This document shows positions 2,013 to 33,880 of a stretch of 40,768 nt of DNA, one piece after another. The translations under genes were made by a program, and so were the position numbers. The notes under the pieces were generated by a model that saw only the letters and a program-made list of their open reading frames with translations, had not been told where the DNA came from and ran no database searches. Source of the stretch: a virus. The stretch lies in the IMG/VR virus record IMGVR_UViG_3300021437_000007, positions 1 to 40,768 of that record; one strand, written 5' to 3'. Within the stretch, counting starts at the first letter, position 1. Every line of letters begins with the position of its first letter.

Positions 2013-2286
2013 ACTAGAAAAATTACAAGACGAGTACATAAAGCTTGAGCGCTATAACGTACTTATGCGCTACAGTTTTAGTCATAAAGGTATTCTTTTA
2101 CCTGAAGAGCAGAGCGAACTCGAAGAACTTAAAGAGTACTTCGACTACGGGCATACCGCACAAGTGGCGCTCATCTACGCCGACCGCGTACTCTTAGAGT
2201 ATGAAGTACTTACCGAAGAAGTCGAGAAACTTAAAGAGCAGTTAAGTAAACCTAAAAGGCTCTTCGGGGTATTCAATGCTCGCTAA
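1999..2286 (+). CDS. Small coiled-coil protein of unknown function
   Basis: This 95-residue, strongly charged protein is nearly all predicted helix. Its regular leucine/charged pattern suits a coiled coil, especially at residues 1-20 and 65-88. The ATG overlaps the primase-helicase end by 14 bp and has an AAAGG ribosome site upstream, so translation is probably coupled. No family is recognised. Its place directly after the replicative helicase suggests an accessory replication factor, but nothing in the sequence proves this. Confidence 0.7.
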   Translation: MTKSKLEKLQDEYIKLERYNVLMRYSFSHKGILLPEEQSELEELKEYFDYGHTAQVALIYADRVLLEYEVLTEEVEKLKEQLSKPKRLFGVFNAR

Positions 2287-2425
2287 TTTATTCGTTATAA
2301 ATATAATCATAGGCACGATTATTAACATTGTGTGGACTGAGAAAAAGCTTGTCGTCGCTTTTAAAGACGCCTTCATAGGCGCTTTAGTATGTACGTGCCT
2401 TATAGGCATCATACTTTATAAATAA
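2276..2425 (+). CDS. 49-residue two-segment membrane protein
   Basis: This short gene starts at an ATG inside the end of the preceding gene (11-bp overlap) and stops at TAA 2423-2425, just before a terminator. The peptide has a hydrophobic segment at about residues 4-20 rich in Ile/Val/Leu, a short charged loop (TEKK), and a second hydrophobic segment at about 33-47. It is probably a two-pass inner-membrane peptide. Overlap, frame and position at the operon end support a real gene. Function is unknown. Host-takeover or holin-like roles are possible but unproven. Confidence 0.6.
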   Translation: MLANLFVINIIIGTIINIVWTEKKLVVAFKDAFIGALVCTCLIGIILYK

Positions 2426-2427
2426 AA

Positions 2428-2447
2428 AAGGCCCCGCAAGGGGCCTT
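2428..2447. terminator. Bidirectional Rho-independent terminator between convergent units
   Basis: A perfect 8-bp stem AAGGCCCC/GGGGCCTT surrounds a GCAA tetraloop. An A-run on the left becomes a U-run for leftward transcripts, and TT follows on the right for rightward ones. It sits between the rightward primase unit ending at 2425 and the leftward unit ending at 2505. Confidence 0.85.
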
Positions 2448-2504
2448 AGTGGCGATTACATATTAGCACTTCGCCAAGGCGCTATTCTACCTAAGCCCTA
2501 CGGC

Positions 2505-2789
2505 TTACTTCTTTTTACTTTTAGCTTTAACAGACTTCTTAGCCTTAGAAGCTTTCTTCGGCTTTGTGGCCTTTAGCTTCTTAGCTGCTTTAATAACTAA
2601 AGGCTTAGCCGTTACTTTCTTTACAGTTCGCGGCGCACGTACTACAGGCGGTATAGTTAACCCCGTAGCCTTTGCTAAGCGCTCATTGATAAGGGTCTGA
2701 TAGCCCTTACCTGACTTCTTAGCTTCTGATTTAATAGCTTGTAACACTTTCGTATTAACTCTCATAGTAACAGCACTTGTAGTAATCAT
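2505..2789 (-). CDS. Ribbon-helix-helix protein with histone H1-like lysine tail
   Basis: This 94-residue protein has two parts. Residues 1-45 look like a ribbon-helix-helix DNA-binding fold of the CopG/BrnA-antitoxin type: a short strand (AVTMRVNTKV), a helix, and GYQTLINERL. Residues 46-94 are low-complexity Lys/Ala/Pro sequence with repeated KAKK-type words, like a histone H1 tail. The start is supported by AAAAAGGAG about 7 bases upstream. It is the last gene of the leftward accessory unit. It likely binds DNA specifically through the first part and non-specifically through the tail. A regulator or a DNA-condensing protein would both fit. No toxin partner is seen beside it. Confidence 0.75.
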   Translation of the reverse strand: MITTSAVTMRVNTKVLQAIKSEAKKSGKGYQTLINERLAKATGLTIPPVVRAPRTVKKVTAKPLVIKAAKKLKATKPKKASKAKKSVKAKSKKK

Positions 2790-2803
2790 AAAGATACTCC
2801 TTT

Positions 2804-2920
2804 TTATTTAGATATAATGGGTAATAACGTACACGTCAAGCTTACCACAAATAGAAGCCCGAAAGCTAGGTATGTGGCAAACTTTAATACGTCAATACGC
2901 TTACGGTATTTCAATCTCAT
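2804..2920 (-). CDS. 38-residue single-pass membrane peptide
   Basis: An ATG at 2920 lies inside the last codons of the phosphoesterase gene and reads 38 codons in another frame to TAA at 2804-2806. The peptide has a very basic start (MRLKYRKR), then one hydrophobic helix at about residues 16-34 (AYLAFGLLFVV and onward). The gene fills the space between the phosphoesterase and the ribbon-helix-helix gene exactly, which supports it. It is too short for family assignment. An inner-membrane peptide with cytoplasmic positive N-terminus is the reasonable reading. Confidence 0.5.
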   Translation of the reverse strand: MRLKYRKRIDVLKFATYLAFGLLFVVSLTCTLLPIISK

Positions 2921-3476
2921 TTAAGCCTCTCTTAAGTACGATAATACGTTTACCTTTGTAGGTAATCTCTTGCGCCGTCTCAGGGTGATAATGCCCGCAT
3001 ACGTACACGCTGCAATTATAAGACTCACAAAGCTTAAAGATATTCTCTAGGGCTTCAGGTTTTAGCTTTCGGTCGATAATAGCTTCAGCTTCTTTAATAA
3101 ACGGTATAATAAACTTACGCTTAAATAAACTCGCCCCGTGCGGCTCAGATCGGTACTTACGCCACTTATCAGGGTTAGCCTCGATATCGCCGTGTACAAA
3201 AACTATACGGGTGCCGCTTTCTGTAGTCCTAATTATGGCCTCATTCTGAGTCGTCATACGGCTATGGTTACCGCATATATAATTATCACCGTGCTTCATA
3301 TCTAAAAACCTAAAGGCCGCGCGGGCTTCTTCGACTTGGTTTTTAGCTACGTTAGCTAGGTCTATAATGTCACCTATGAATAGCGTATTGACGGCTGCGG
3401 GCTCATTACTTACCTCGGCCTTCATTATCTCTATCGGACTAAAGATATGAGTATCGGCATATACTTTAAATTTCAT
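2901..3476 (-). CDS. Calcineurin-like metallophosphoesterase
   Basis: The 191-residue protein shows the metallophosphoesterase motif series in order: D8-T-H10, GDIID at 35-39, GN-H71, HGD at 95-97 and GHYH at 161-164. These residues bind the dinuclear metal centre in the calcineurin-like superfamily. The usual aspartate or glutamate after GNH is serine here, which occurs in divergent phage members. Phage versions act on phosphodiesters, phosphomonoesters or nucleotides, and the substrate cannot be read from sequence. It overlaps the upstream HNH-like gene by 4 bp, so translation is coupled. Confidence 0.88.
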   Translation of the reverse strand: MKFKVYADTHIFSPIEIMKAEVSNEPAAVNTLFIGDIIDLANVAKNQVEEARAAFRFLDMKHGDNYICGNHSRMTTQNEAIIRTTESGTRIVFVHGDIEANPDKWRKYRSEPHGASLFKRKFIIPFIKEAEAIIDRKLKPEALENIFKLCESYNCSVYVCGHYHPETAQEITYKGKRIIVLKRGLNEIEIP

Positions 3477-3916
3477 ACACTCTTCTTTCTAGTGCTACGA
3501 GCACTGTTAACCGCTTGAGTTACCCACTCTATGTTATCTACTCGGTAACCTACCTTAGAGTCAATGCGGTCTACTGAAGGGGCTAACCTATGTAAGTACC
3601 CGCTATCTTTGTAATGTTTAAATAATGTGTGAAACTTCTTAGACGTAATAGCCCAAGAGTAAAAGTCTTCTTTACTCATTAAGCACTTACCTTTATATAA
3701 GTGGTGCTTAAGCTTCTGTACACCTTCTATACGTGACTTCATATTACGGTAAAGCCTGACGATAAAACCTTTTTTAGTCTTCTCGTACTTCTTTGTATAA
3801 AGCCCTGAGTTAGCTTCTCGCTTATCTCTTTGGTATAGATTGATACGGTCTCTAAAAGCTTTAAACTCTTCGGGCGTATGAATACCCATAGATACGGTTT
3901 TACTTGTAGGTCTCAT
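3473..3916 (-). CDS. HNH-like phage endonuclease-family protein
   Basis: The protein is 147 residues and basic. Its C-terminal region contains APSVDRIDSKVGYRVDNIEW, matching the core of a widespread phage family related to HNH nucleases, in which the DRID and N-x-x-W/V elements sit in the beta-beta-alpha metal finger. Upstream lies a helical region with KGKCLMSKEDFYSWA, where the family often has a CxxC or KxCxL zinc-like motif, reduced here to one cysteine. It may be a DNA-binding or nicking protein, or a degenerate free-standing homing nuclease. The start has a strong GAAGGAG site. Confidence 0.65.
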   Translation of the reverse strand: MRPTSKTVSMGIHTPEEFKAFRDRINLYQRDKREANSGLYTKKYEKTKKGFIVRLYRNMKSRIEGVQKLKHHLYKGKCLMSKEDFYSWAITSKKFHTLFKHYKDSGYLHRLAPSVDRIDSKVGYRVDNIEWVTQAVNSARSTRKKSV

Positions 3917-3920
3917 AAGG

Positions 3921-4331
3921 TTACTCCTTCGGGGTTATGGCTATCTTACGGCGTAAGCAGCCGCAAGACTTCGTTTGCCCGAAGCGTAGTTGATAGCCCG
4001 CTACAAGTAAAGAGTTACCGCAGTCGCAAGTACATACGTAGTACGCAGCGCGACTACGCTTAGAGGCTCTAAGCCCGTAAAAGGCTTTCACATACAAGCG
4101 ACCGTACCGCTTACCCGTTTCGTCTTTATAGTTATGGCTACGTTTACGAAAGTCGATAGTCGGGTCGACACGCTTAAGAGCCCTACGCACTTGCACTATG
4201 TTAGTGGCGTGCATAAAGGCTATATCTTTAATCGAGATGCCGCGCTTATAGCATGAGTAGATAGACTCTAGGACTGATTTAGTCATACGGTAGCGGCGCT
4301 TTATAATGCGGCCTTGGGGTAGGTTATTCAT
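3921..4331 (-). CDS. Helix-turn-helix plus zinc-ribbon DNA-binding protein
   Basis: This 136-residue basic protein starts with a helix-turn-helix-like region (about residues 17-52, including GISIKDIAFMHATNIVQVRR). It continues with a module that begins GKRYGRLYV and ends in a cysteine cluster CTCDCG...SCGCL. That module occurs in phage HNH/AP2-type homing-nuclease relatives, where the cysteines bind zinc. No catalytic HNH residues are visible, so DNA binding is the safer call. It is the first leftward gene out of the divergent dyad region and may regulate it. The ATG at 4331 lacks a clear ribosome site. Confidence 0.62.
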   Translation of the reverse strand: MNNLPQGRIIKRRYRMTKSVLESIYSCYKRGISIKDIAFMHATNIVQVRRALKRVDPTIDFRKRSHNYKDETGKRYGRLYVKAFYGLRASKRSRAAYYVCTCDCGNSLLVAGYQLRFGQTKSCGCLRRKIAITPKE

Positions 4332-4338
4332 ACCGTTT

Positions 4339-4368
4339 AAGGTACTTGAGTATGTACGCTTATGTCAA
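4339..4368 (-). promoter_or_regulatory. Candidate leftward promoter with dyad element in spacer
   Basis: On the minus strand a perfect TTGACA (4368-4363) is followed after 18 bases by TACCTT (4344-4339). The spacer is mostly TAAGCGTACATACT, one of the four repeated outer elements of the dyad region. A protein bound there would block or activate this promoter. The predicted start would leave almost no leader before the ATG at 4331, so the -10 call is uncertain. Confidence 0.42.
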
Positions 4369-4902
4369 TAGGGGGTAAACCTAACTAGGTTTTGTATGTA
4401 CGCTTATTACCCTTTAAGGGTATGTATCTGTCCCTAGCTGTCCCTAGTTTTGGCCCTAGTACTTAAATGAGCACGGGCCGTTATTCTTTAGTAGTTTCAT
4501 ATACTTATCTATACTGTCCCAAGTGTCCTATATAATATATATAGTTAACTAATAGTTATATTATAGCTACTATATAGCTATATAGATTATGCCTATTATG
4601 TAGGCATATAGCGTATATATCCTATACAGCCAACATACGAAAATGCTTGGTCCACTTGGGCCAGCCCTAAGTATGTGTAATCATTAAAGAAACTTCATAA
4701 CGATTTAAAAAGGACTTGGGACAGCACTAGGGCCAGCTTAAAACGTAGGCATTTAGGATAAAACGGGCTAAATAGGGCTTAGCGTACATACTTTAACGTG
4801 TTTTTAGGGGTTTTAAGCGTACATACTAAGTTTTCAGGGGCGCCGCTTATGGCCGAGCGGCCTACGATTTAACTTGATACATTATAATAATGTGGTTAAC
4901 TC

Positions 4903-4919
4903 TACCCCATAAAGGGGTA
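4903..4919 (+). promoter_or_regulatory. Hairpin overlapping the ribosome-binding site of the 4924 gene
   Basis: TACCCC (4903-4908) pairs with GGGGTA (4914-4919) around an ATAAA loop. The purine-rich AGGGG that should serve as ribosome-binding site for the ATG at 4924 is part of the right arm. A TATAAT (4883-4888) just upstream could be a -10 box, but no good -35 was found at the proper distance. Confidence 0.5.
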
Positions 4920-4923
4920 ACAC

Positions 4924-5328
4924 ATGTCTAAAAGAATAAACGTGAGAGCGAAAGGCTTTGCTTTCGAGCGTTATATCGCAGCCGCTATGCGTATGATCGG
5001 CTACACGAAAGCTCACCGTCAGTTAGAGTTTCAGATAAACAACGCTTTAGGCATAGATATAGCTGAGACGGGGCGCTACAAGATACAGTGTAAGAAGACT
5101 AAGAAGTACGTACCTATGAATACGATTAACGAAGTTAAGTACAAAGGTGACGAGATACCCGTACTTATCGCAGCGGGCGACGGCGAGCCGCCTTTAGTGA
5201 CTATGAGGCTTGAAGACTGGTTAGAGCTTGTAAGTAAAAACTTCTTAGACGTTAATACTACTGTTATGGACCGTGTCGACGTGATAGAAGGCTTAAAAGA
5301 TATTAAAAACAATAGACATAAGGAGTAA
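4924..5328 (+). CDS. PD-(D/E)XK-type nuclease, possible Holliday-junction resolvase
   Basis: The 134-residue protein fits the archaeal-type resolvase/restriction-like fold. A glutamate lies in the first helix (GFAFERYIAA, E15), D45 is in LGIDI, and Q55-C-K57 sits on the following strand in YKIQCKK. These are the spacing and residues of the E...D...(E/Q)xK active site. Such enzymes cut branched recombination or replication intermediates before packaging. It is the first rightward gene out of the dyad region. A restriction-like or other structure-specific nuclease remains possible. Confidence 0.7.
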   Translation: MSKRINVRAKGFAFERYIAAAMRMIGYTKAHRQLEFQINNALGIDIAETGRYKIQCKKTKKYVPMNTINEVKYKGDEIPVLIAAGDGEPPLVTMRLEDWLELVSKNFLDVNTTVMDRVDVIEGLKDIKNNRHKE

Positions 5329-5332
5329 CCAC

Positions 5333-5536
5333 ATGGCTACGTATGTACAGCCACTTAAAAAAATAAAGCTTATAGATTTATTAAGAGATTTAAAAAGGCT
5401 AGAGGTTTTACATACCGAAGCCGTTTACGGCGACAAAGAGTTATCAATATCCGATCAAGATGAGTATGAGCGCCTTTCTAACCAAGAGATAGTCATAGGG
5501 TACGATAACGAGCCGAGGTCTGACTATGTACGATAA
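5333..5536 (+). CDS. Hypothetical small early protein
   Basis: This 67-residue protein starts four bases after the nuclease gene, with AAGGAG upstream. It is amphipathic, with a helical N-terminal half (IKLIDLLRDLKRLEVLH) and an acidic C-terminal half. No motif or family is recognised. Overlap with the next gene by 11 bp supports translation as part of a coupled early cluster. Confidence 0.65.
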   Translation: MATYVQPLKKIKLIDLLRDLKRLEVLHTEAVYGDKELSISDQDEYERLSNQEIVIGYDNEPRSDYVR

Positions 5537-5669
5537 AGCCGCTCTTATAGTATGCGTGTTACTGCTTATGTGCTCTAATATCTTTTTTATGTTAAAGGCA
5601 TTAGACTATAAGCGTAAGTACCTTAGTAACGCCGATTTTTGGGCGTTGCATAGAGGCAAACTTAAATGA
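5526..5669 (+). CDS. 47-residue single-pass membrane protein
   Basis: ATG at 5526 overlaps the end of the preceding gene, and the TGA at 5667-5669 overlaps the next ATG as ATGA. The peptide has one clear transmembrane segment at about residues 6-23 (ALIVCVLLLMCSNIFFM), followed by a basic tail (KRKY). The two overlaps make it very likely to be a genuine gene. Function is unknown. Confidence 0.62.
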   Translation: MYDKAALIVCVLLLMCSNIFFMLKALDYKRKYLSNADFWALHRGKLK

Positions 5670-5860
5670 AGCCACACGGTATTAAAATTACACCTAAGCG
5701 AGTGCCCGTAAGTGCGGTAGTTGACGAGGTAGTCGTTAAGCGCTTAGAGATGCTAGGCATAGACGTTAAAGAACTAATCAGATATACATTGACCGACGCT
5801 TCAGGGTACTTCGTTTGCCCTTGCTGCGGCGGCCTTTTAAAACCAAAGAAGAAACTTTAA
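5666..5860 (+). CDS. Small protein with C-terminal CPCCG zinc-knuckle-like motif
   Basis: The 64-residue protein begins in an ATGA overlap with the upstream membrane peptide. Residues 14-45 look helical and charged. The C-terminus carries VCPCCGGLLKPKKK, half of a zinc ribbon (a single CxCC cluster) followed by a basic tail. Zinc could be bound by a dimer or with a partner protein. No family is recognised. Confidence 0.6.
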   Translation: MKPHGIKITPKRVPVSAVVDEVVVKRLEMLGIDVKELIRYTLTDASGYFVCPCCGGLLKPKKKL

Positions 5861-6123
5861 AAACTAGACTACCCTTGGGACTTGCACGTCACTACTATAT
5901 GTATGTGCAAGCCATGACGAAGCTTAAAAAGCGTAATCAAATAAGTATAAATAAAGAGCTACAGGCTCTAAACTCTATGCGGGCAAACGACGATTTAGTT
6001 AATGCCCTTACTTTCTATTTAGCTCAGCCACACTTAACAGAAGCTCAGCGCGTGCGTTTACGGGCCACTCTTGCCGTATTGAGTCATGCCCCTCTAAATA
6101 AAAAATTACTTGCATCTTTGTAA
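5815..6123 (+). CDS. Hypothetical helical protein, start uncertain
   Basis: The longest form starts at TTG 5815 with AGGG eight bases upstream and overlaps the previous gene by 46 bp, giving 102 residues. A shorter form from ATG 5899 would have 74 residues. The sequence is helical and basic, with a Leu-rich C-terminal half (LTEAQRVRLRATLAVLSH). The long overlap is unusual for this genome, so the shorter form is plausible. No family is recognised. Confidence 0.5.
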   Translation: MPLLRRPFKTKEETLKTRLPLGLARHYYMYVQAMTKLKKRNQISINKELQALNSMRANDDLVNALTFYLAQPHLTEAQRVRLRATLAVLSHAPLNKKLLASL

Positions 6124-6168: not shown

Positions 6169-6738
6169 ATGGCTAACGAAAACGTACAAAGAAGACCTCA
6201 AGGCGCAGTAGCACAAAACGCTAAATCAAGCGCTAAAACCCCTACAAAGAGACGTAATTTTACAGGCACTAAAGAGATTATGACCGATCTTTTTAAGCTT
6301 TTACCCGCTGACGTTATTAAGCATGATAGCGGCGCGACCGAAAACGCCCACCCTACAAGACAAGCTAATGAGTTTACCTCATGGCCCCACACGCACCCTT
6401 TTCGCACTTATGATAAGTCAGGTAAACGCTTAACTTACAGCGTACCTATCGGCGGTCACTTTCACGTTATCGAGTGGTCAGCGCCCGAAGAAGAAGGCAA
6501 TAGCCCTGAGATTATCTCAGTAAGTGGCCCTATGGTTATGGGTATGCGTGAAGACCCCGAAACGGGCCTCAAAGTACAAGCGCCCGTACCTGCTAATAAG
6601 TATGATAAACATACTCACGAAGTAGAGTACTTACGCTCAAGTAAAATTATTACTTCTACGTCTAACACTGAAGCCGCAAGCGTTATCGCTATGGTAGAGA
6701 GCAAAGTAGCCCCTATCGCGGGCGTAGTAGAGCGATAA
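6169..6738 (+). CDS. Hypothetical 189-residue protein, histidine-rich core
   Basis: The start has a strong AAAGGAG. The first 30 residues are a basic, flexible Gln/Ala/Lys tail. The core (about 60-110) has repeated histidines: WPHTHPF, then GGHFHVIEW, and later KHTHEVEY. This spacing could bind a metal, as in cupin-like beta folds. Family is not recognised. The strong and possibly regulated initiation site suggests the protein is abundant. It lies between the early genes and terminase. Confidence 0.65.
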   Translation: MANENVQRRPQGAVAQNAKSSAKTPTKRRNFTGTKEIMTDLFKLLPADVIKHDSGATENAHPTRQANEFTSWPHTHPFRTYDKSGKRLTYSVPIGGHFHVIEWSAPEEEGNSPEIISVSGPMVMGMREDPETGLKVQAPVPANKYDKHTHEVEYLRSSKIITSTSNTEAASVIAMVESKVAPIAGVVER

Positions 6739-6739
6739 T

Positions 6740-6907
6740 ATGGGTACTCTTATAGTATGCGACTTTAACCCTGAGTTAGTGGGCCTTATCGCCGCTGAGC
6801 CCGTAAAAAACTACCCCGACATAAAAAAAGCCTACTTAGCCGCAGGATATAGCGAGAGCTTTATTAACGTAATCATACGACGGGCTTTAAAAAGAAAAGG
6901 TTTTTAA
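6740..6907 (+). CDS. 55-residue helix-turn-helix-like peptide
   Basis: ATG at 6740 comes just after the previous stop, and TAA at 6905-6907 lies one base before the next ATG. The C-terminal half (YPDIKKAYLAAGYSESFINV) resembles the first helix-turn-helix of terminase small subunits, where A-x-x-AGYS is common. It lies upstream of terminase but is separated from it by three genes. It may be a small DNA-binding accessory protein. The evidence is only pattern-level. Confidence 0.5.
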   Translation: MGTLIVCDFNPELVGLIAAEPVKNYPDIKKAYLAAGYSESFINVIIRRALKRKGF

Positions 6908-6908
6908 T

Positions 6909-7178
6909 ATGCTAAACGAAAACACCATAAGAACTTTGAAGCCTGCTCAAGTGGCTTCTATTATGCCTTGGGACGCCTGCGAAGGCGTCGTGATTTTGTG
7001 TCTAGCTAAAAAAGGTGAGCCTAATAATATCGTAATGTCTACAGTTACGATAGAAGAGCTTGCACTACTTACGGCTCAACTACAGGCGCACCTTAATTCA
7101 CTTTTATTTAACTCATTAGTAGAGGACGTACCGACGAAGAAAGCAGAGGCCACAAGTGGACCTGACGCTAAAAAGTAG
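6909..7178 (+). CDS. Hypothetical small alpha/beta protein
   Basis: The 89-residue protein has a compact core (SIMPWDACEGVVILCLAKKG then a helix, EELALLTAQLQAHLNSLL) and a disordered charged C-terminus. The strand-turn-strand-helix pattern suggests a small globular fold. No family is recognised. It overlaps the next gene by 23 bp. Confidence 0.6.
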   Translation: MLNENTIRTLKPAQVASIMPWDACEGVVILCLAKKGEPNNIVMSTVTIEELALLTAQLQAHLNSLLFNSLVEDVPTKKAEATSGPDAKK

Positions 7179-8108: not shown

Positions 8109-8168
8109 CACGATAAAGCCTTTATGTGTGTTAAATTTTAAAATAAAACCCTTAAGGCTTTTATCGTG
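8109..8168 (+). promoter_or_regulatory. Long hairpin covering the ribosome site and GTG start of the large terminase gene
   Basis: CACGATAAAGCCT (8109-8121) pairs with AGGCTTTTATCGTG (8155-8168) over 13 bp with one bulged T. The right arm includes the AGG of the TTAAGG ribosome site and ends on the GTG start codon itself. A 29-codon frame (ATG 8095 to TAA 8184) runs through the left arm, so its translation could open the structure. The structure could instead be part of a packaging site. Confidence 0.55.
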
Positions 8169-9419
8169 CAGCACTTTAAATTAAAGTACATACCTAATAA
8201 GCACCAAAGAGAATTTCAGAGCGACATTACAAGTCGCTTTTTACACTTATCTACGGGCTTCGGCGGCGGTAAGACCTACTCACTCGCTCAAAAACTTATA
8301 CAGCTTTCTGTACTTAATAAAAACATGGCGGGCGGTTTAGTCGTAGTTGATTACTCAGAGTTTAAAAAAGATATCTTACCCGAGTTTCAATTTATTTTAG
8401 ATGCTAATAATATACCCTACCGCTTTCATCAAACTGAGAAGTGGTTTTTATTCCCGTGGTCTAGCGGTAAGCTTTACGTCGTAACAGCCGAAAAGCCTAT
8501 CAGGGGTCAAAATTGGGCTTACTGCGGCCTTAACGAAGTTACTCTTATGCCACTTGTGAGATACAAAGAAGCTATCGGTCGTGTACGTATCAAGTCGGCA
8601 CCTTGCCCTATGATAGTTTCTTCGGGTACGCCCGAGGGCCACATATCAGAGTACTACGAATATATGATAGAAAACCCGCCGCGTGGCTTTCGTATTATCT
8701 ACGGTAGCACTGACGATAACTTACATAACTTAGGTGACTTTTATATAGATAACTTAGAGGCTTCTTACGATACAAAAATGTTAGAGGCGTACCGACAAGG
8801 CTTATGGGTCAACATGAGCGAAAGTCTTTTTTATTACTCTTACGACCCCACAAAAAACCATGACGACACTTTACAGCTTAACGACTATCAATCGTTTCAT
8901 ATCAGTATGGACTTTAACGTCGACCCTTTCTGCGCGACGATATGGGGCTATGACGGGTACGGGCTCTATGGTTTAGATCAGATAGAGCTAAAAGGTAAGC
9001 AAGGTTACTCGACCGTTAACATGGTAGATGCTATGCAAGCCCGAGGCTTCACGCCTAATAATTCAATTATCTATCCTGACCCCGCAGGTAAAGCACGCTC
9101 GACTAAAGGCTTACCTGATATTACAGTATTACGTAATGCGGGCTACGAAACGCGTTTTAGACCTGCGGCGCCCGACTTCAGAAAGCGTCAGCTTAATGTG
9201 AATAACCTACTTGATAAGGGCATAATTAAATTTAATTCGATAAAGTGTACAGGTATCAGAAAAGACTTTGTAGGCGTCGAGCAAGATAAAATAACGCTTG
9301 AGAAGCTCAAAGATAACCCTAACTTGACGCATTACTCTGACGGGTTAGACTATATGTGCGACATACTATACCCTTTTAGCGGTAATGCTAAAGGTACTTT
9401 ACAAACTGTAATCAGATAG
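8166..9419 (+). CDS. terL: Terminase large subunit
   Basis: The 417-residue packaging motor has Walker A GFGGGKT at 31-37. A Walker B-like WAYCGLNEVT strand with the catalytic glutamate lies near 120, and an SGTPEG coupling motif near 160. The C-terminal RNase H-like nuclease shows its acidic residues: D in SMDFNVDP (about 250), D in IIYPDPAGKARSTK (about 300) and D in YSDGLDYMCD near the end. It cuts concatemers and drives DNA into the prohead with ATP. The start is GTG 8166, inside a hairpin. Length is within the usual 400-600 range. Small subunit lies upstream and portal downstream. Confidence 0.95.
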   Translation: MQHFKLKYIPNKHQREFQSDITSRFLHLSTGFGGGKTYSLAQKLIQLSVLNKNMAGGLVVVDYSEFKKDILPEFQFILDANNIPYRFHQTEKWFLFPWSSGKLYVVTAEKPIRGQNWAYCGLNEVTLMPLVRYKEAIGRVRIKSAPCPMIVSSGTPEGHISEYYEYMIENPPRGFRIIYGSTDDNLHNLGDFYIDNLEASYDTKMLEAYRQGLWVNMSESLFYYSYDPTKNHDDTLQLNDYQSFHISMDFNVDPFCATIWGYDGYGLYGLDQIELKGKQGYSTVNMVDAMQARGFTPNNSIIYPDPAGKARSTKGLPDITVLRNAGYETRFRPAAPDFRKRQLNVNNLLDKGIIKFNSIKCTGIRKDFVGVEQDKITLEKLKDNPNLTHYSDGLDYMCDILYPFSGNAKGTLQTVIR

Positions 9420-9428
9420 GGGCTTAAA

Positions 9429-11198
9429 ATGAAATTAACTAGAGAGTCTGACATACTAGACCCATTAAAACGCGCTAAAATTATTCAAGAGATAGAAGGT
9501 CAAGAGAATCGTACACGTAAGTACGAAGCTTTTAAACGCTATCAATGCTACAAAGATATGACTAATCATTACGTTATGAATTACTTACTACGTCAGTTTG
9601 AGCAGAATACTGTTAACGAGATGAGATACGCTTTATCTAATATCAGCTTCGTTAGAAAAGTAGTCGATAAGCTCGCTCGCGTGTACTCGAACGGCGTCGA
9701 GCGCTGTATTTCAGGCGACGAAGAAGCGACCGCAAAGCTTAAAAAGATTGAAAAGGTTTTTAAACTTAATGAGACTTTAAAGTCGACTAATCGTTTTTTA
9801 AAACTACAAAAAAATATCGACCTTTTCGTTAAGCCTTACCCACATTATGAGGGCGGCTCAGACGTACCTAAGTACCGTATCACGTTAGACGTACTTCAGC
9901 CGTATCTATATGACGCTCTTGAGAGTGGCTACGACCGCACGACGGCTTTAGCTATTGTATTATCAGACTATACTCACCCAAGTACTGACCTTATGGACTT
10001 AGACTCTCGTAGTACGAAAGTGTTACCGCTTGCGCCGCCTGCGGGCGTAAGGGCCGATAACATAGATCAGACGATAGCTAATAGCCCTCAAGATAAGGGC
10101 GCTAACCCTTCTAATAAGCATTATGTGTGGTGGTCTAAATCGTTTCATTTTACGACCGATAATAACGGCGAGATTATAGCAGACGAGCTAGGTAAAAAAG
10201 ATACCGCTAACCCGCTTAATAAACATTTCAGTCATATTAACTTTGCCATAGATCAGGACGGCTCATTTTGGGCTCAAGGCGGTAACGATTTAATCGACGG
10301 CGCTATCTTACTTAATGGCGTAATTACGCATACCACACACGTAGGCGTGACCCAAGGTTACGGTCAGTTTTATATGACGGGCGAAAACTTACCTAGAGTA
10401 ATTAAAGTCGGCGTTACGAAGTCTATACTTGTGGAGTACAAAGGCTCTGAGCAGCAAGCTAAACCTGAGCTTGGCTTCTTATCAGCTAACCCGCAGCTAG
10501 ACGCTTTACGCTCTCTTATCGAGATGTACATAGCCCTATACTTAACGACTAATAACTTAAGTACTTCAGGCGTAAGTACGCAGCTTAAAGGCGGTACGAG
10601 CTTTGCGTCAGGTATAGCTTTAATCTTAGACATGGCTGAGTCATTAGAAGACGTACACGATCAGCGCCAAGTATTTTTAGATAACGAGCTATGTATCATT
10701 AAAGCGATTAACGAAACGCTTAAAGCTTACGGCGATAAACTCGACGACGACTTTAAAGATTTAGTCCTACCTGACGGCTTTGAAGAAAACTTCACGGTAA
10801 AATTTAACGACGCAAGTCCTATTATGACTGAGAAAGAAAAGCTAGAGTCACTAGAGTTACGTCGTGAAATGGGACTAGAAACTCGTATCTCTATGATTAT
10901 GAAAGATGACCCGACTCTTGACGAAACTCAAGCCGAAGAAAAGCTTTTAAAAATGATCGAGCAAGAGATAGAAGAGAAGGTCTTAGAGATGCAAGCTCAG
11001 CAAGACGCGGGCCTTAACGTACAGACTGACGTTAACGGTAACCCGATAGACCCTAATGCGCCCCCACAAGTGGACGCTAACGGTAACCCTGTAGCTCAAG
11101 ACCCTAATGCAGCACCCATACAGCCTAATAAGCCGCCCGTACCTGACGTTAAAAAGAAGGTCGGTAAGAAACTTAACTCAGACGTTAACAAACTATAA
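9429..11198 (+). CDS. Portal protein
   Basis: This 589-residue protein follows the large terminase by 9 bp, the classic portal position. Residues 60-100 (YALSNISFVRKVVDKLARVY) look like the conserved opening of portal proteins. A long helical region at about 440-530 (EKEKLESLELRREMGL with DETQAEEKLLKM) fits the stem/crown helices, where the EK.. and AEE patterns recur in portals. The C-terminal 60 residues are proline-, asparagine- and lysine-rich with two DVNGNP/DANGNP repeats, probably flexible. It forms the dodecameric DNA gateway at one capsid vertex. Confidence 0.82.
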   Translation: MKLTRESDILDPLKRAKIIQEIEGQENRTRKYEAFKRYQCYKDMTNHYVMNYLLRQFEQNTVNEMRYALSNISFVRKVVDKLARVYSNGVERCISGDEEATAKLKKIEKVFKLNETLKSTNRFLKLQKNIDLFVKPYPHYEGGSDVPKYRITLDVLQPYLYDALESGYDRTTALAIVLSDYTHPSTDLMDLDSRSTKVLPLAPPAGVRADNIDQTIANSPQDKGANPSNKHYVWWSKSFHFTTDNNGEIIADELGKKDTANPLNKHFSHINFAIDQDGSFWAQGGNDLIDGAILLNGVITHTTHVGVTQGYGQFYMTGENLPRVIKVGVTKSILVEYKGSEQQAKPELGFLSANPQLDALRSLIEMYIALYLTTNNLSTSGVSTQLKGGTSFASGIALILDMAESLEDVHDQRQVFLDNELCIIKAINETLKAYGDKLDDDFKDLVLPDGFEENFTVKFNDASPIMTEKEKLESLELRREMGLETRISMIMKDDPTLDETQAEEKLLKMIEQEIEEKVLEMQAQQDAGLNVQTDVNGNPIDPNAPPQVDANGNPVAQDPNAAPIQPNKPPVPDVKKKVGKKLNSDVNKL

Positions 11199-13037: not shown

Positions 13038-13886
13038 ATGGCTGACGCACCTATGAGAGCATCGAACGAGACAAGTGTTATCGTACCTGAAATCTGGTCA
13101 AAGAATTATTATGACGTACTCTTAGCAGAGTTACCTTTCGAGTCTTTAATCTCTAAAGATTACGAAGGCGAAATTCAAGCGCTAGGTGATACTGTTAATA
13201 TCTCTTCTATCCCTGAGTTCGCAGAAGCGGGCGAGTTACCGACTGAAGACGCGGCTAACGACGCTGAAGCTGTTACGATTACAGGTCAACAACTTGTAAT
13301 TAACAAGCAGCTTGTGAAAGACTTTATCATCACCGATAAAGCTAAATTACAGTCTTTACCTTTCGTAGAAAAGCTTAAGTCTTTAGCTATCTACTCTATT
13401 CAAAAAAAGATTCAGTCTTTGATTATCTCTTTAACAGTGCCGTCGGCGGCTGCGCCTGACCACACATTGTTAGCGGTAACAGCGGGTACTTACGCTCTAG
13501 CTGATATCTTAGCTTCTAAAGAGCTTTTAGATAACGCTAAAGTGCCTATGGCTGACCGTCATAAAATCTTAGGCGCGGGGCCATTAAATGATATTTTTAA
13601 TATCACGGGCTTTACGTCTTCTGACTTCGTAGCTTCAGGCTCGCCTTTAGTTACAGGTGAGTTACCTGCTCAGTTAGCAGGTTTTATGCCTCACTTCACG
13701 ACTGTAGTAGGGTCTACAGTATATGACTTTCATAAGTCGTATTTCACAATGGCTTCTCAGAAAGGTATCGAAGTTAAAGAGTTCGACCTTGGCGTTATCG
13801 GTAAGCGTGGTATGCGTGTAAACTGTACTACTCTTTTAGGTATGAAGCAGCTTGATAACAAGCGTGTAGTTACAACTACTGTTTAA
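13038..13886 (+). CDS. Major capsid protein (HK97 fold)
   Basis: The 282-residue protein has the layout of HK97-fold coat proteins without a cleaved delta domain. An N-terminal helix region (ETSVIVPEIWSKNYYDVLLA) comes first. An extended-loop segment with GDTVNISSIPE follows, then a long spine helix (about 105-135, LPFVEKLKSLAIYSIQKKIQ), and P- and A-domain beta segments to the end. A very strong AAAGGAG, a stable leader stem-loop and a terminator after the gene all suit the most abundant virion protein. The scaffold gene is directly upstream. Confidence 0.88.
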   Translation: MADAPMRASNETSVIVPEIWSKNYYDVLLAELPFESLISKDYEGEIQALGDTVNISSIPEFAEAGELPTEDAANDAEAVTITGQQLVINKQLVKDFIITDKAKLQSLPFVEKLKSLAIYSIQKKIQSLIISLTVPSAAAPDHTLLAVTAGTYALADILASKELLDNAKVPMADRHKILGAGPLNDIFNITGFTSSDFVASGSPLVTGELPAQLAGFMPHFTTVVGSTVYDFHKSYFTMASQKGIEVKEFDLGVIGKRGMRVNCTTLLGMKQLDNKRVVTTTV

Positions 13887-14645: not shown

Positions 14646-15131
14646 ATGCCTAACGTAGACGACCACGGTTTAGAGGTCATAAGAAAAGCTGCGCGAGACT
14701 TACTCTCGGGCGGCACCGCTAAGCGTGACTATGCCCTACAAGTATGGCTTATGAACCCCACAAGCGGCGGGGGCGGCTCAGCTTCTAACTTAGAAGCCCG
14801 CAACGCTTCCGAAACGATAAGCGCTTTAAAGTGCTTATACTCAGTCGACGCTAACAACATAGCTAAAGCACAAGATAATGTAAGCTTTTTAGAAGCTTCA
14901 GTCTTTGGCATAGCGGTAACAGCGGCTAACATTAACGAGTCAGTACAGATACAAACGAGCGGCACCTTACGCGACACAAGTTTTACTTGGGCGTCAGGTA
15001 CTCAATTATATGTGGGCGCTAATGGCGTACTTACTGACGTCGCCCCTACAGTCGGCTTTCGCACACTGGTAGCGGTAGCTCAAGGCGTAGGTCAAATTTT
15101 CATTAACATACAAGAGCCAATAGCTCTTTAA
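14646..15131 (+). CDS. Virion structural protein, decoration-like
   Basis: The 161-residue protein has a helical N-terminal 30 residues, a poly-glycine linker near 40, and a beta-rich C-terminal domain. That domain ends GANGVLTDVAPTVGFRTLVA and IFINIQEPIAL. The G-x-LTD-x-AP-x-x-GF ... (I/V)-x-I-x-x-P-I-x-L ending is common in phage capsid-decoration and fibre-head proteins. AAGGAG precedes the ATG. It is probably on the virion surface. The exact place (head or tail) is inferred only from its position after the capsid gene. Confidence 0.6.
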   Translation: MPNVDDHGLEVIRKAARDLLSGGTAKRDYALQVWLMNPTSGGGGSASNLEARNASETISALKCLYSVDANNIAKAQDNVSFLEASVFGIAVTAANINESVQIQTSGTLRDTSFTWASGTQLYVGANGVLTDVAPTVGFRTLVAVAQGVGQIFINIQEPIAL

Positions 15132-15665: not shown

Positions 15666-15883
15666 TGGAACGTATAGCACTCGCTCTCATTGACGGTAAA
15701 ATAGCGCAGGTGCCTGCGTCTGATACTATCAGGGGCGCGGGTGCGGGCTCTTCAGGTTATCAAAAATATCAAGTTAATTCGACCGAGACTTACACAATAC
15801 CTACGGGCGTATCGTCTGTAATTACAGGCCCTTTTATGAATGACGGTGTATTGATAGTCGAAGGTAGATTAGAGGTTATATGA
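15665..15883 (+). CDS. Short structural protein sharing its N-terminus with the preceding gene
   Basis: The 72-residue protein begins ERIALALIDGKIAQVPASD then RGAGAG, aligning with RVLELVNGKITQVPAKD of the upstream gene. The remainder (YTIPTGVSSVITGPFMNDGV, LIVEGRLEVI) looks like a single beta repeat or a fibre tip element. Shared N-termini suggest that both attach to the same virion site. It overlaps the next gene by 4 bp. Confidence 0.58.
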   Translation: MERIALALIDGKIAQVPASDTIRGAGAGSSGYQKYQVNSTETYTIPTGVSSVITGPFMNDGVLIVEGRLEVI

Positions 15884-16299
15884 GCAGTTACATTGTACAG
15901 ACCGCCGTAGCTGCGTCGAGCGTACCTAATGCCGCCGCAGGCAAAGTCAATATTTTTGTAGATATCGCCGACGGTATTACTAAATCGAAAGACTCGGCGG
16001 GTACTGTAGTGCCTTTTAGGCCGTCGGCTAATGTGTCTAACTCTTCGAGTTTAAGTACGTACACTATAACAGACGAAGACTTTTTTAGGGGCTTTGGGGC
16101 TTTAGCTCAAGTAGTAACTTTACCAGACGCTACAAGTAACACGAAAGAACGTAATATAAAAAACACAAGCTCAGGTGATATGACTATAACAGGCATATCG
16201 GGGCAAACTATCGACGGTAACGCTAATTTAGTGTTACGCGGTGGTAAAAAACAGAGCGTAACGCTTAGGTCTGAAGGGGGCTTATGGTGGATAGTTTAA
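15880..16299 (+). CDS. Beta-rich structural protein
   Basis: The 139-residue protein starts in an ATGA-type overlap. The N-terminal part (VNIFVDIADGITKSKDSAGT) resembles a motif common at the N-terminus of phage fibre and appendage proteins. The C-terminal part (TLPDATSNTKERNIKNTSSG and GGLWWIV) forms short strands resembling a beta-helix cap or small sandwich. It is probably a virion appendage. Confidence 0.58.
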   Translation: MSSYIVQTAVAASSVPNAAAGKVNIFVDIADGITKSKDSAGTVVPFRPSANVSNSSSLSTYTITDEDFFRGFGALAQVVTLPDATSNTKERNIKNTSSGDMTITGISGQTIDGNANLVLRGGKKQSVTLRSEGGLWWIV

Positions 16300-17846
16300 T
16301 AAAAATTTTAATGGTACTTACGTTAGCTTTAAATGCTAACGCTACGTACTTAGATAGTGTAGATGTAACGTCTAACGGCTCGCCCGTTAGTAACACTAAC
16401 CCGTTAGGGGTTAGATTAAGCGACGGTACGAGCTATATTAGCACGCTACCCGTTTCTTTAGCGTCAATACCTTTAGCTTCAGGTGCGGCTTTAGCATCTT
16501 GGCAAGCGTCTTCTGACGCGACTTTATCGGCGTTAAACGCTAAAACGCCCGCGCTAGGTCAAGCTTTAAATGCCGCCTCAGTGCCCGTCGTACTTACGGC
16601 ATCTCAACTAAGTACTTTAACGCCTTTATCAAGCGTAAGTATCAGCGGTACGCCTTCGGTTAATGTGGCTAACGCTTCGTTAGCTGTTACGGGCGCTTTC
16701 TTTCAGGCTACGCAGCCCGTCTCTTTAGCGTCAATACCTTTAGCTTCAGGTGCGGCTTTAGCATCTTGGCAAGCTTCGGCTGATACCACATTATCAGCGA
16801 TTAACTCAAAACTTGCGGGTACTATCGCTACAAGCGTGGCGGGCGGCGCGACTTCAGCTTTACAAACTAGCGGTAATAGCTCACTTAGTACTATCGCTTC
16901 TAACACTACAGGCGTAAGTACCGCAGCTAATCAATCTACTATGATTACGTCGTTAAATACAATAGCGGCTAATACGGGCGCTCAATCGACCGATACTATC
17001 GCTACGGGCTCTATCTCAGCACTTAACGGCGCGGTTTTAGTTAACGCTCAAGGGGCGTACACGATTAGCGCTAATATTGCGGGTACTTTCGTAGGTACGG
17101 TCGTAGCCGAAGGGCAAGACGCAAGCGGTGTGTGGAATCAACTACCTATGTATATCGTGCAAACGACTACACCTTACCCTCAAACTTTCACGGTAACAAC
17201 GCCGTCGACGGTTTTAATTACGGGCGGCGGTTATGCGTCTGTACGCATACGGTCGAGTGCTTTTACTTCAGGTACGATTAACGTAGGCTTAAACGCTTCT
17301 TTAGCTCAGCAAACTATATTCTCAGCACAGTTAGGTACTTGGGCCACAAAGCCCGTACAAGTAGCCACATATGGGGCTTCTATAACGGGTGCGTCGTTTG
17401 CCGTAGCTAATACCGATGTGTTTACTATCACGGGCTCAGCGACTAAAACGATTAAAATTAAACATATTTCGCTTGACGGTACTCAAACTACTGCGGGCGT
17501 GGTCGGTATTCTTTTAATTAAGCGGTCTACTGCTAACTCGGGCGGTACGTCTACAGTAGTTACTTCGGGGCCTTTCGACTCTACAAGCGCCGCAGCGACC
17601 GCAGTAGTACGTCAATATACGGCCAACCCGACCGTCGGTACGCCTGTAGCTACTTTGCACTCTGAAAAAGTCTTCGTAAGTACGACTACGGGTCAACCTG
17701 ACGAGCTTAAGTTTGACTTCTCAAACTTGACGGGTATGCAAGAGATAACTTTACGGGGCACTAATGAAGTTTTAGCTATAAACTTAAACGGCGTTTCAGT
17801 GACGGGTAGTTCTTTTAACGCCGACATAACATGGACCGAGGAGTAA
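16284..17846 (+). CDS. 520-residue structural protein with Sec signal peptide and internal repeats
   Basis: An AAGGGGG site precedes ATG 16284, which overlaps the previous gene by 16 bp. Residues 1-20 look like a Sec signal peptide: MVDSLIK, a hydrophobic ILMVLTLAL core, then NANA before threonine. The body has a 59-bp DNA repeat that encodes PVSLASIPLASGAALASWQA twice. The linker is Ser/Thr/Ala-rich. A beta-sandwich-like region (about 250-350) follows with WNQLPMYIVQ and GGGYASVRIRSSA, and a C-terminal domain follows that. Phage proteins with similar sandwich segments are virion proteins. A signal peptide in such a gene is unexpected, and export to periplasm or cell surface is possible. Confidence 0.65.
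   Translation: MVDSLIKILMVLTLALNANATYLDSVDVTSNGSPVSNTNPLGVRLSDGTSYISTLPVSLASIPLASGAALASWQASSDATLSALNAKTPALGQALNAASVPVVLTASQLSTLTPLSSVSISGTPSVNVANASLAVTGAFFQATQPVSLASIPLASGAALASWQASADTTLSAINSKLAGTIATSVAGGATSALQTSGNSSLSTIASNTTGVSTAANQSTMITSLNTIAANTGAQSTDTIATGSISALNGAVLVNAQGAYTISANIAGTFVGTVVAEGQDASGVWNQLPMYIVQTTTPYPQTFTVTTPSTVLITGGGYASVRIRSSAFTSGTINVGLNASLAQQTIFSAQLGTWATKPVQVATYGASITGASFAVANTDVFTITGSATKTIKIKHISLDGTQTTAGVVGILLIKRSTANSGGTSTVVTSGPFDSTSAAATAVVRQYTANPTVGTPVATLHSEKVFVSTTTGQPDELKFDFSNLTGMQEITLRGTNEVLAINLNGVSVTGSSFNADITWTEE
16449..16507 (+). repeat. 59-bp direct repeat, copy 1
   Basis: This segment inside the 520-residue structural gene recurs 267 bp downstream with 58 of 59 bases the same (T at 16454 is C in copy 2). 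It is in frame and codes for the same 20-residue protein motif. Near-identity at synonymous sites indicates recent duplication or gene conversion. Confidence 0.85.
16716..16774 (+). repeat. 59-bp direct repeat, copy 2
   Basis: This is the second copy of the in-frame repeat in the 520-residue structural gene. After it, the two copies diverge at the DNA level but still encode similar residues (TLSALNAK and TLSAINSK). Confidence 0.85.
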
Positions 17847-17850
17847 TAAA

Positions 17851-18294
17851 ATGAAGAAACTTTTAGTAATACTTACGCTTTTATACCTTTCTTTAACGTC
17901 TTTCGCTATTACAGGGTCTACTTATGACCCGCCTAGCATGTCAGTAATCGAAAAGACTAAATCAAACTTTAACGGTCAGAAAGTCTCGGCGGTCGTTACC
18001 GCTAATACGACTCAGGATATTGACCTACCTTTAACTGACGACCACTTATTAACAGGAGCACAAGTAGACTTATCGGGCGCTTGTATTATGGACGAAGTAC
18101 AGTTTAAAGTCGTAAGCGGCACGACGGTAGTTAATCAGTTTATCGACTGGTATGCCTCAAGTTTTACTCGCGATATGGGTTACCCTGCTAAAATACCTGC
18201 GGGCCTTAAGCTTCGAGTGACGTATAAGAATACGTGCGTAGCGACTGACGTAACTGTTAAGATTAACTACTTCTTACACAAGATTTTATTATGA
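17851..18294 (+). CDS. Secreted 147-residue protein (clear Sec signal peptide)
   Basis: MKKLLVILTLLYLSLTSFA is a textbook type I signal peptide, with predicted cleavage after SFA (residue 19). The mature part is about 128 residues and mostly beta, with two cysteines (in GACIMDE and NTCVATD) that could form a disulphide in the periplasm. It starts four bases after the preceding signal-peptide gene and overlaps the next gene by 4 bp. No family is recognised. Export to the periplasm of an infected cell is strongly suggested, which is unusual within a virion gene cluster. Confidence 0.72.
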   Translation: MKKLLVILTLLYLSLTSFAITGSTYDPPSMSVIEKTKSNFNGQKVSAVVTANTTQDIDLPLTDDHLLTGAQVDLSGACIMDEVQFKVVSGTTVVNQFIDWYASSFTRDMGYPAKIPAGLKLRVTYKNTCVATDVTVKINYFLHKILL

Positions 18295-18971
18295 TTTTAC
18301 GGGCACTTATCGAGTTTATTAGTTTTAAAATTATAAGCCCTTTTAAGTGGACCCGTTTAAAGTACTTACTTACGGGCCGCGAGTATGACTTACAGCCTAA
18401 AGACCGCGACATGATCAGAGATTTATGCGAGCAAGGTACGTATTTATGGGTTACTCGAAGAGATACTCATTTAACTACGTACTTAATCGTCTTTTCTGAC
18501 TACGTACTTGCGCTTATGGCATACTACAGAGAAGGCCGAAAAGGTCAAAAACCCCGCTTAGGTTACTACTCTCATGCGTTTTTAAACGCTGATAGTGATA
18601 CTTTTATCGAAGCGGTCGCCCAAGGCGTCGTTTTTAATTATTTTGATAATGTGTTTAACGCTGACGCCGCCGCAGGATTAGTGCCGTCAAAGCTTACACA
18701 TACTGAGTGGTCTATGTTTTCTAAAAAGTTTGTAGAGGTCGCTAAAAGTAAAGTCGGCGCCCGCTATGATACTTTTTTTAACTTAAAAGACGAGTCTGAA
18801 GTGTCGTGTATCGAACTGATTAGAGTTTCACTTCGTCACTGTATGTCAGAATCAGACTATAACTTGCGATTTAAAAACTTTGAAGCGTTAATAGCTGAAA
18901 GAAGAAACTTAACCCCTGATATGCTAAGAGACTGCGAAGACTTTGAAGTCATCTTAGAGCTAAGAAGGTAA
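18291..18971 (+). CDS. YiiX/permuted NlpC-P60-like cysteine peptidase or amidase
   Basis: The 226-residue protein matches the permuted papain-like (YiiX/YaeF) pattern. H95 sits in GYYSHAFLNA, E107 and the turn G112-V follow in FIEAVAQGVV, and the nucleophile C173 with E175 is in VSCIELIRVS near the C-terminus, after a GARYDTFF strand. In this fold the histidine precedes the cysteine. Relatives cut amide bonds in peptidoglycan or lipid-linked substrates. The first 20 residues are hydrophobic but not a clear signal peptide. The gene lies between a secreted protein and the connector. It could be a virion-borne wall hydrolase. Confidence 0.7.
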   Translation: MILRALIEFISFKIISPFKWTRLKYLLTGREYDLQPKDRDMIRDLCEQGTYLWVTRRDTHLTTYLIVFSDYVLALMAYYREGRKGQKPRLGYYSHAFLNADSDTFIEAVAQGVVFNYFDNVFNADAAAGLVPSKLTHTEWSMFSKKFVEVAKSKVGARYDTFFNLKDESEVSCIELIRVSLRHCMSESDYNLRFKNFEALIAERRNLTPDMLRDCEDFEVILELRR

Positions 18972-29188: not shown

Positions 29189-29524
29189 ATGAAACTCTTA
29201 ACGGTATGGCGAAACTTTTTAGAAGCGGTAAAGAAGTACGTACTCAGTGACTACTTAAAAAAGCTTGTGGTTAGCTATGCCGTTAAGGCTTTAGGTATTG
29301 GCTCAAGCTTTGGCTCTTGGCTCGCGGTATTAGTCGTAAAAAAGATGTATGATATCGGCGCCGCTGAAGTTAAAAAAGAGATAACTAAAGAAGAAACTAA
29401 ACTAGATAATGCAAAGGATAATCAGAAGTATGATACAATTATTAAAGACCCTAACTCTTCAGCCGACGATATTAAAAACGCTGCGCCTGACTTTCTGGGC
29501 GGTACTGTTAATAAGCCTAAGTAA
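29189..29524 (+). CDS. Membrane protein, possible holin or inner-membrane spanin
   Basis: The 111-residue protein has a basic amphipathic N-terminus, a hydrophobic segment at about 35-52 (LGIGSSFGSWLAVLVV) and a charged helical C-terminal region (EVKKEITKEETKLDNAKDNQ). The next gene, a lipoprotein-like frame, starts within it in another frame, an arrangement typical of Rz/Rz1 spanin pairs. The hydrophobic segment is more internal than in classical Rz proteins, so holin-like function is an alternative. The ribosome site is weak. Confidence 0.52.
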   Translation: MKLLTVWRNFLEAVKKYVLSDYLKKLVVSYAVKALGIGSSFGSWLAVLVVKKMYDIGAAEVKKEITKEETKLDNAKDNQKYDTIIKDPNSSADDIKNAAPDFLGGTVNKPK

Positions 29525-29810
29525 CTGTAAAGGATATACCCCACCTTTAGTTACTTTAAATCAGATAGATACTATACATAATCAAGTTAACCCTTTTAAG
29601 ATTACTAAGTACGATAAAGTATCGTGCAAGCTTGAGCTTGAGCCCCAGCCTTCTTACCCTTTAATGGGTGCCGCTTCGCCGCTTATGGGTGGGGTGTGTT
29701 TAACTAAAGAAGACTACGCTAAGATTAAAGACTCAGTCGAAGCCGAGTGTATAAATAACAAACCAAAGGCTAACAATGTCAACGCCACTCACGACCTTAG
29801 CGTCGAATAA
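29409..29810 (+). CDS. Lipoprotein-like protein (Rz1-like outer-membrane spanin candidate)
   Basis: ATG 29409 lies inside the preceding gene in another frame, overlapping it by 116 bp. Residues 24-39 are a hydrophobic signal (TLRLTFWAVLLISLSN) directly before C40, giving an LSNC lipobox-like site. Asparagine at -1 is unusual. The mature part is proline-containing (GYTPPLV and PQPSYPLM) and includes cysteines. An overlapped lipoprotein after a membrane gene suits an Rz1-type spanin, but the mature part (over 90 residues) is longer than most. The end overlaps the hub gene by 35 bp. Confidence 0.52.
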   Translation: MQRIIRSMIQLLKTLTLQPTILKTLRLTFWAVLLISLSNCKGYTPPLVTLNQIDTIHNQVNPFKITKYDKVSCKLELEPQPSYPLMGAASPLMGGVCLTKEDYAKIKDSVEAECINNKPKANNVNATHDLSVE

Positions 29811-33773: not shown

Positions 33774-33784
33774 AAATTGACTCC

Positions 33785-33880
33785 TTAGTTTAAGTAGGGC
33801 CGTAGAAAGTGTACTGCGGCTAATGTGGTAAAGATAATCACACAAAAAAGTAACGCTTGTCTATCTGTAGTTTCGTGCAT
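33785..33880 (-). CDS. 31-residue membrane peptide, candidate mini-holin
   Basis: ATG at 33880 lies 5 bases after the polymerase stop with AGTAGG upstream, and reads to TAA at 33785-33787, which partly overlaps the AAGGAG site of the endolysin. The peptide has a charged start (HETTDRQ) and one transmembrane helix (ALLFCVIIFTTLAAVHFL), then RPYLN. One short helix directly before an endolysin fits a pinholin or class III-like holin, but no homologue can be named from sequence alone. Confidence 0.5.
   Translation of the reverse strand: MHETTDRQALLFCVIIFTTLAAVHFLRPYLN

Follow-up and report, generated by a model that had tools for sequence, protein, structure and literature searches.

Recurrent, paired Sec-type leaders on a fiber-like and a cement-like protein gene in the head cluster of a tailed phage

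Introduction

Cement proteins, jelly-roll fibers, and Sec leaders are each already known. Spanins and receptor-blocking lipoproteins are among the phage proteins exported with a Sec leader. The Ig-like trimeric cements of phages KHP30 and KHP40 (Helicobacter pylori) and of GP4 (gp1; Ralstonia) are small beta-sandwich proteins from the head cluster, as the smaller of the two proteins studied here is predicted to be. In KHP30, we read ORF15, which directly follows the structural protein ORF14, as the cement gene on the basis of its size and place. According to the GP4 report (PMC9698820), gp1 forms trimers at the quasi-threefold axes of the capsid, and its chain was traced from Ala2, meaning that the N-terminus is kept, unlike a cleaved leader. 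Among bacterial proteins, the MAT fiber proteins of Bdellovibrio consist of a signal peptide followed by a phage-fiber-like trimeric adhesin, as described in their report (PMC10769870).

In searches of open full-text literature, we found among the papers listed none on signal peptides of tailed-phage capsid or fiber proteins. The words "signal" and "periplasm" were absent from the main text of a decoration-protein review (PMC7602432) in a term search. Within the open literature searched, the new element is thus the paired and recurrent combination of cement or fiber proteins with Sec leaders in the head clusters of tailed phages.

Results

We analyzed a 40,768-nucleotide stretch from a tailed phage (IMG/VR virus record IMGVR_UViG_3300021437_000007; hereafter the window), in which an earlier note, made from the sequence alone, had described two consecutive genes with Sec signal peptides inside the virion structural cluster. 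The two open reading frames, of 520 (16284–17846) and 147 (17851–18294) amino acids on the plus strand, were found as described, and the larger product contains the internal repeat ascribed to it: residues 57–88 (VSLASIPLASGAALASWQASSDATLSALNAKT; 16452–16547, plus strand) and 146–177 (16719–16814, plus strand) are 83% identical in DNA.

Leaders were called with a rule of our own that combines the charge of the n-region, an eight-residue hydrophobic core, and small residues at positions –3 and –1. The rule detected six of seven E. coli leaders and, in a 50-kb E. coli region, passed all 6 exported proteins or lipoproteins, 0 of 29 cytosolic proteins, and 3 of 11 inner-membrane proteins. Owing to the latter, the rule alone cannot distinguish cleaved leaders from membrane anchors that stay uncleaved, and the weight is carried by comparative tests. 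Shuffled N-termini of the relatives passed in 0.5% of cases at the strict threshold. Three of the 53 genes in the window passed; among the 23 head and tail genes that run from the terminase to the tail fiber, the two that did were exactly the 520- and 147-aa genes.

The leader of the 520-aa protein, MVDSLIKILMVLTLALNANA (20 residues; 16284–16343, plus strand; rule score 4.89), has its predicted cut at NANA/TYLD, and that of the 147-aa protein, MKKLLVILTLLYLSLTSFA (19 residues; 17851–17907, plus strand; rule score 4.88), at SFA/ITGS, the two sites proposed originally. The cuts would leave mature proteins of 500 (16344–17846 with the stop codon) and 128 residues (17908–18294 with the stop codon). 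Mean Kyte–Doolittle hydropathy of the cores is 2.89 and 3.38, respectively, and both leaders have small residues at –3/–1 (A-N-A and S-F-A). The n-region of the 147-aa protein has a charge of +2, and that of the 520-aa protein a net charge of 0 (D3, K7), which is the weak point. Ribosome-binding-like sequences precede both genes (GAAGGGGG at 16273–16280 and GAGGAG at 17838–17843), and in-frame stops lie 4 codons (16272) and 8 codons (17827) upstream of the respective starts. Alternative downstream starts are few, at 16287 and 16311 in the 520-aa gene and at 17938, already within the mature part, in the 147-aa gene. The in-frame stops, the ribosome sites, and the lack of any start that drops the leader cleanly led us to reject a wrongly chosen start codon. 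A lipobox was seen in neither protein, and we rejected lipoproteins.

The surroundings are those of a head cluster. The terminase (8166–9419), a large structural gene that by its position is the portal (9429–11198), and the major capsid protein (13038–13886) are followed by small head genes, the 520- and 147-aa genes, a 226-aa gene, and the head–tail and tail genes; the 147-aa gene is located ~4 kb 3′ of the capsid gene and ahead of the head–tail genes. Among the small head genes, an untagged (leaderless) one (14646–15131, plus strand) matches Phage_cement_2 in Pfam (E 1.7e-5; its 25.5 bits exceed the cut-off of 24) and is a separate candidate for a cytosolic cement. An untagged fiber-type gene immediately upstream (15880–16299, plus strand) overlaps the tagged 520-aa gene by 16 bases, and an overlap of the same length is present in the relative L108. 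The downstream 226-aa gene (18291–18971, plus strand) has no leader by the rule and no Pfam match; its position, alignment, and His/Cys pattern indicate that the product is probably a permuted papain-like (C92-type) cysteine hydrolase. At the matching place, relative L110 has a gene (6381–6965) with a Pfam Peptidase_C92 match (E 1.7e-10), and hydrolases of this type are often encoded next after the small protein.

A lipobox protein in the lysis region (29409–29810) suggests a diderm host, the envelope contents of which would be released along with the virions. On the minus strand, opposite to the structural genes, the product of 33180–33845 is TIGR02594-like (65.8 bits, slightly below the 70.55 cut-off) and likely the endolysin. 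Among 50,697 named phage records, we found no close relative of the window phage: its terminase, polymerase, and capsid protein matched distant phages only, with Gram-negative hosts for most of the listed terminase and polymerase matches. In tblastn searches of the same records, neither the small protein nor the jelly-roll domain described below had a relative, and the sole match of the 520-aa protein was to the repeat region of a leaderless cyanophage protein. Pfam, PHROGs, NCBIfam, and PADLOC gave no family name for either protein at useful scores, the weak matches (e.g., CBAH, SiaC, and JUQZ) being single-member or far under the cut-offs, and neither protein had a useful sequence match to solved structures.

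Relatives from other loci were more informative. Contigs L014/L015, with a capsid protein 95% identical to that of the window, keep both genes at 48–51% identity over the matched parts, and their N-termini are different yet Sec-like. In L018 and L019 (capsid 71%), the proteins at the corresponding place are leaderless. The untagged 398-aa protein of L018 is 33% identical to the tagged fiber of L015 over 342 alignment columns (E 6e-51), and the leaderless protein of L019 is 23% identical to that of the window (E 7e-7); thus, one kind of protein can be tagged or untagged within one phage group. The leader sequences themselves diverge, with 5–10 identical residues out of 16–20, and are still Sec-like in L015, L108/L023, and L110.

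To extend the comparison, we scanned for the small-protein family with a seven-member alignment and found 26 loci. Two of these (L109 and L122) were dropped as contigs of L014/L015, and the remaining 24, together with the window, L015, L029, L048, and L050, made up 29 lineages. The small protein is tagged in 7 lineages, all passing the rule, and untagged in 22. The gene directly upstream is tagged in those seven lineages as well as in L123; four of these eight leaders were called by the rule and four (L108, L110, L123, and L132), which fail it, by eye. The state of the two genes agrees in 28 of 29 lineages (7 both tagged, 21 neither; Fisher 5e-6), the discordant one being L123 with a tagged fiber beside an untagged small protein. 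The concordance held with rule calls alone (p 0.003) and after the four members of the window clade were treated as one and near-copies pooled (p 0.0006). The first start of L126 gives a rule-positive N-terminus, and this lineage stands as tagged in the rule-only count; in the count of 29 lineages, we called it untagged as the stretch is part of a long N-terminal extension.

In the phylogenetic tree, the tagged small proteins do not form one clade (AU p 0.018). Parsimony requires four changes of tag state, of which the starred branches alone force two, and L132 is tagged within a well-supported untagged clade. An independent-pairs test had only two pairs on starred branches, too few to reach significance. 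The alignment gave a further indication of how the leaders arose. Leaderless small proteins begin with MLNSTYKP, MLNSGYDP, MQGSTFNP, or similar sequences, and these starts align to the predicted +1 position of the tagged members, cut as A/MTGSTYDA in L015, A/MTSSTYNP in L108, A/MTGSTFDP in L117, and A/ITGSTYDP in the window; a methionine is still present at +1 in the first three. This implies that the leader is a module set before a complete ancestral reading frame (or lost from one). As the leaders are conserved in character, not in sequence, and have been gained or lost jointly in both genes, they are very probably functional.

A pair of cysteines follows the leaders. It is present in five of seven tagged and in none of the 22 untagged small proteins (p 2e-4), at matching aligned places in the window (Cys78, codon 18082–18084, and Cys129, codon 18235–18237, plus strand), L015, L108, L110, and L132, the tagged members without it being L050 and L117. 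On the tree, the pair requires two changes, on two separate branches. By the predicted strands of the AlphaFold2 model, Cys78 and Cys129 lie in two hairpin loops, and the two may form a disulfide in the window protein.

Modeled without its leader, the small protein folds as a beta-sandwich of eight strands (AlphaFold2 pLDDT 82). In a VIA-align comparison, the KHP40 cement trimer ranked first (Z 10.2, 109 residues, 2.8 Å); the matches also include the KHP30 cement at Z 8.8, a capsid chain of GP4 at 8.3, and the unrelated enzyme domain PHM at 9.3. With PHM within 1 Z of KHP40, the cement label rests on the common fold together with gene position. At the C-terminus of the 520-aa protein, residues 360–520 (17361–17843, plus strand) were modeled as a jelly-roll domain (AlphaFold2 pLDDT 94). 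This domain matches small viral capsid jelly-rolls at Z 7.9–8.3 and C1q heads at 7.0–7.3, values that indicate a common fold, not kinship, and has clear matches in BFVD to uncharacterized phage proteins (best E 2e-15). On these models, the 520-aa protein is fiber-like with a phage-type jelly-roll tip.

In IMG/VR, 75 viral loci carry the jelly-roll domain, and one bacterial contig has it as well. This contig was the only hit of the domain alignment among 84,980 species genomes: a short contig of a Thioploca metagenome-assembled genome (JAAUSR010000190.1; L107) that is probably viral. Of 56 distinct jelly-roll ORFs, 12 had a leader by the rule, compared with 23 of the 533 other ORFs (p 3e-5). 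The call in L085 is false, its "leader" being inside the domain, and its exclusion leaves 11 of 56 (p 1e-4); L064 and L093 are tagged by eye and absent from the rule positives.

Tagged proteins also share modules with untagged ones. In L015, the N-terminal 50-residue module of leaderless fibers occurs by itself in the untagged gene before the tagged fiber (62%, E 8e-18), and in L050, the leader of the tagged fiber is followed by a module of the untagged L018 head-cluster protein (47% across 88 residues, E 7e-14). L123 contains four Sec-like fiber-type genes within 5.7 kb (365–1207, 1541–2194, 2207–4576, and 4597–6000), with one short untagged ORF between; the third matches the Pfam Collar family at E 9e-22 as well as C1q. 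Further tagged fiber-like genes were seen in L110 (181–1872) and in L047, where two tagged jelly-roll proteins are in tandem (1115–2224 and 2228–4486). The mature start of the tagged L041 fiber (2645–4483), FFNDQGLEVIRRAA, resembles by eye VDDHGLEVIRKAA, the N-terminus of the untagged 14646 protein of the window; the blastp matches listed contain none between the two proteins. In the GenBank podovirus MW202898 (L136), a fiber gene annotated with a caprin-2 domain (15767–18487) has an internal ATG behind AAAGGAG that yields MFNKILIAIVFIITCLNAFS/DGN, and the signal peptide is clear if translation begins there.

Discussion

We tentatively favor the explanation that the two proteins are virion decorations rerouted through the Sec system, folded in the periplasm, and joined to the virions at lysis. 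One decoration would be a fiber tipped by a jelly-roll of the trimer type, the other a small beta-sandwich of cement-like fold. In the phage lineage of the window, the host Sec system would export both. Once freed of their leaders by signal peptidase, they would fold in the periplasm, the fiber possibly as a trimer and the small protein with a disulfide. When spanins complete lysis, the contents of periplasm and cytoplasm would mingle, and the pair could bind the finished heads, or each other and then the virion. Family, place, and shared modules point to the binding step. The window already having a second cement candidate (14646–15131) is a counterpoint, as is the dilution of the proteins at lysis, which may limit how efficiently they bind heads. 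The earlier note had offered both loading onto virions at lysis and superinfection exclusion: given the leaderless homologues in the same head cluster, the cement-like fold, and the modules shared with untagged head-cluster proteins, the former fits better, and the latter is without specific support.

An exported pair could alternatively act within the infected cell's envelope, for instance masking a receptor or blocking the DNA entry of a second phage, with the likeness to virion proteins reflecting origin only. Leaders do direct soluble proteins to the periplasm, the two proteins switch tag state jointly as an envelope complex would, and Bdellovibrio has domesticated fiber-like exported proteins (PMC10769870). 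The genes, however, lie well inside the head cluster, and at this position the family is untagged in most relatives (neither gene tagged in 21 of 29 lineages), for which an envelope role is difficult to envisage. Neither a lipobox nor a second membrane segment was noticed, and PADLOC gave no match up to E 0.1, although in our judgment most exclusion proteins are probably absent from that library. On balance, we regard an envelope role as possible but less likely than loading at lysis. Still less probable is that the hydrophobic segments at the N-termini serve as anchors that stay uncleaved or as membrane-inserting virion parts used in entry or lysis: the inner-membrane proteins that pass the rule (3 of 11) and the uncharged n-region of the 520-aa protein would allow this, but both proteins have small residues at –3/–1, the added segment stops exactly at the start of the leaderless homologues, and the linked cysteines suit an oxidizing compartment.

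The exported fiber and its partner might also coat the outer membrane or debris at lysis as decoys, keeping the progeny off the killed cell. Jelly-roll tips are frequent in receptor-binding proteins, and export would put them by the envelope; we consider this proposal quite improbable. Of the other ORFs of these phages, 23 of 533 also pass the rule, and the leaders could be functionless products of chance or of wrong starts. They are found, however, on two adjacent genes and recur in relatives whose leaders differ in sequence, and the concordance across 29 lineages makes chance unlikely; we thus gave this account very little credence and set it aside after the comparison with relatives.

Extending lysis-time loading of exported decorations beyond the window is a bolder proposition, which we hold with somewhat less assurance: some tailed phages may split virion assembly, making heads and tails in the cytoplasm and exporting decorations and fibers through Sec to be folded with disulfides and attached at lysis. 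The route would have arisen several times and may include the four nearly consecutive fiber-type genes of L123, one of them of tail-collar type. If true, lysis would not be the end of assembly: disulfide-bonded parts impossible in the cytoplasm could still complete the virion surface afterward, and fibers could be exchanged between the lysates of neighboring cells. The naturally paired tagged and untagged versions provide a ready comparison for testing the idea.

The closest described systems each share a part of this arrangement. The 147-aa family has no sequence match to the KHP30, KHP40, or GP4 cements, and KHP30 ORF15 starts with MKQKVHSVSYLAK, without a leader, unlike the tagged protein. 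The C-terminus of the 520-aa protein resembles the jelly-roll/C1q/TNF-like tips of the Agrobacterium phage 7-7-1 and Klebsiella phage KP1 type at Z 7.1–7.3, where values below 8 may mean a common fold only, and a repeat-rich shaft ahead of the tip is common to it and the C1q/TNF-like viral jelly-roll fibers. We know of no leader on fibers of the 7-7-1 or KP1 type. The tip of Bdellovibrio Bd2133 is a weak Foldseek match (E 0.053); unlike the window pair, the MAT proteins are encoded by the bacterium, serve predation, and lie outside a virion cluster. The T4 antiholin RI is, like the window pair, a phage protein with a Sec leader, in its case a cleavable signal peptide; RI, the spanins, and the receptor-blocking lipoproteins nevertheless act in lysis or exclusion and are not virion-type proteins, whereas the window pair combines such leaders with a cement-like and a fiber-like fold in the head cluster.
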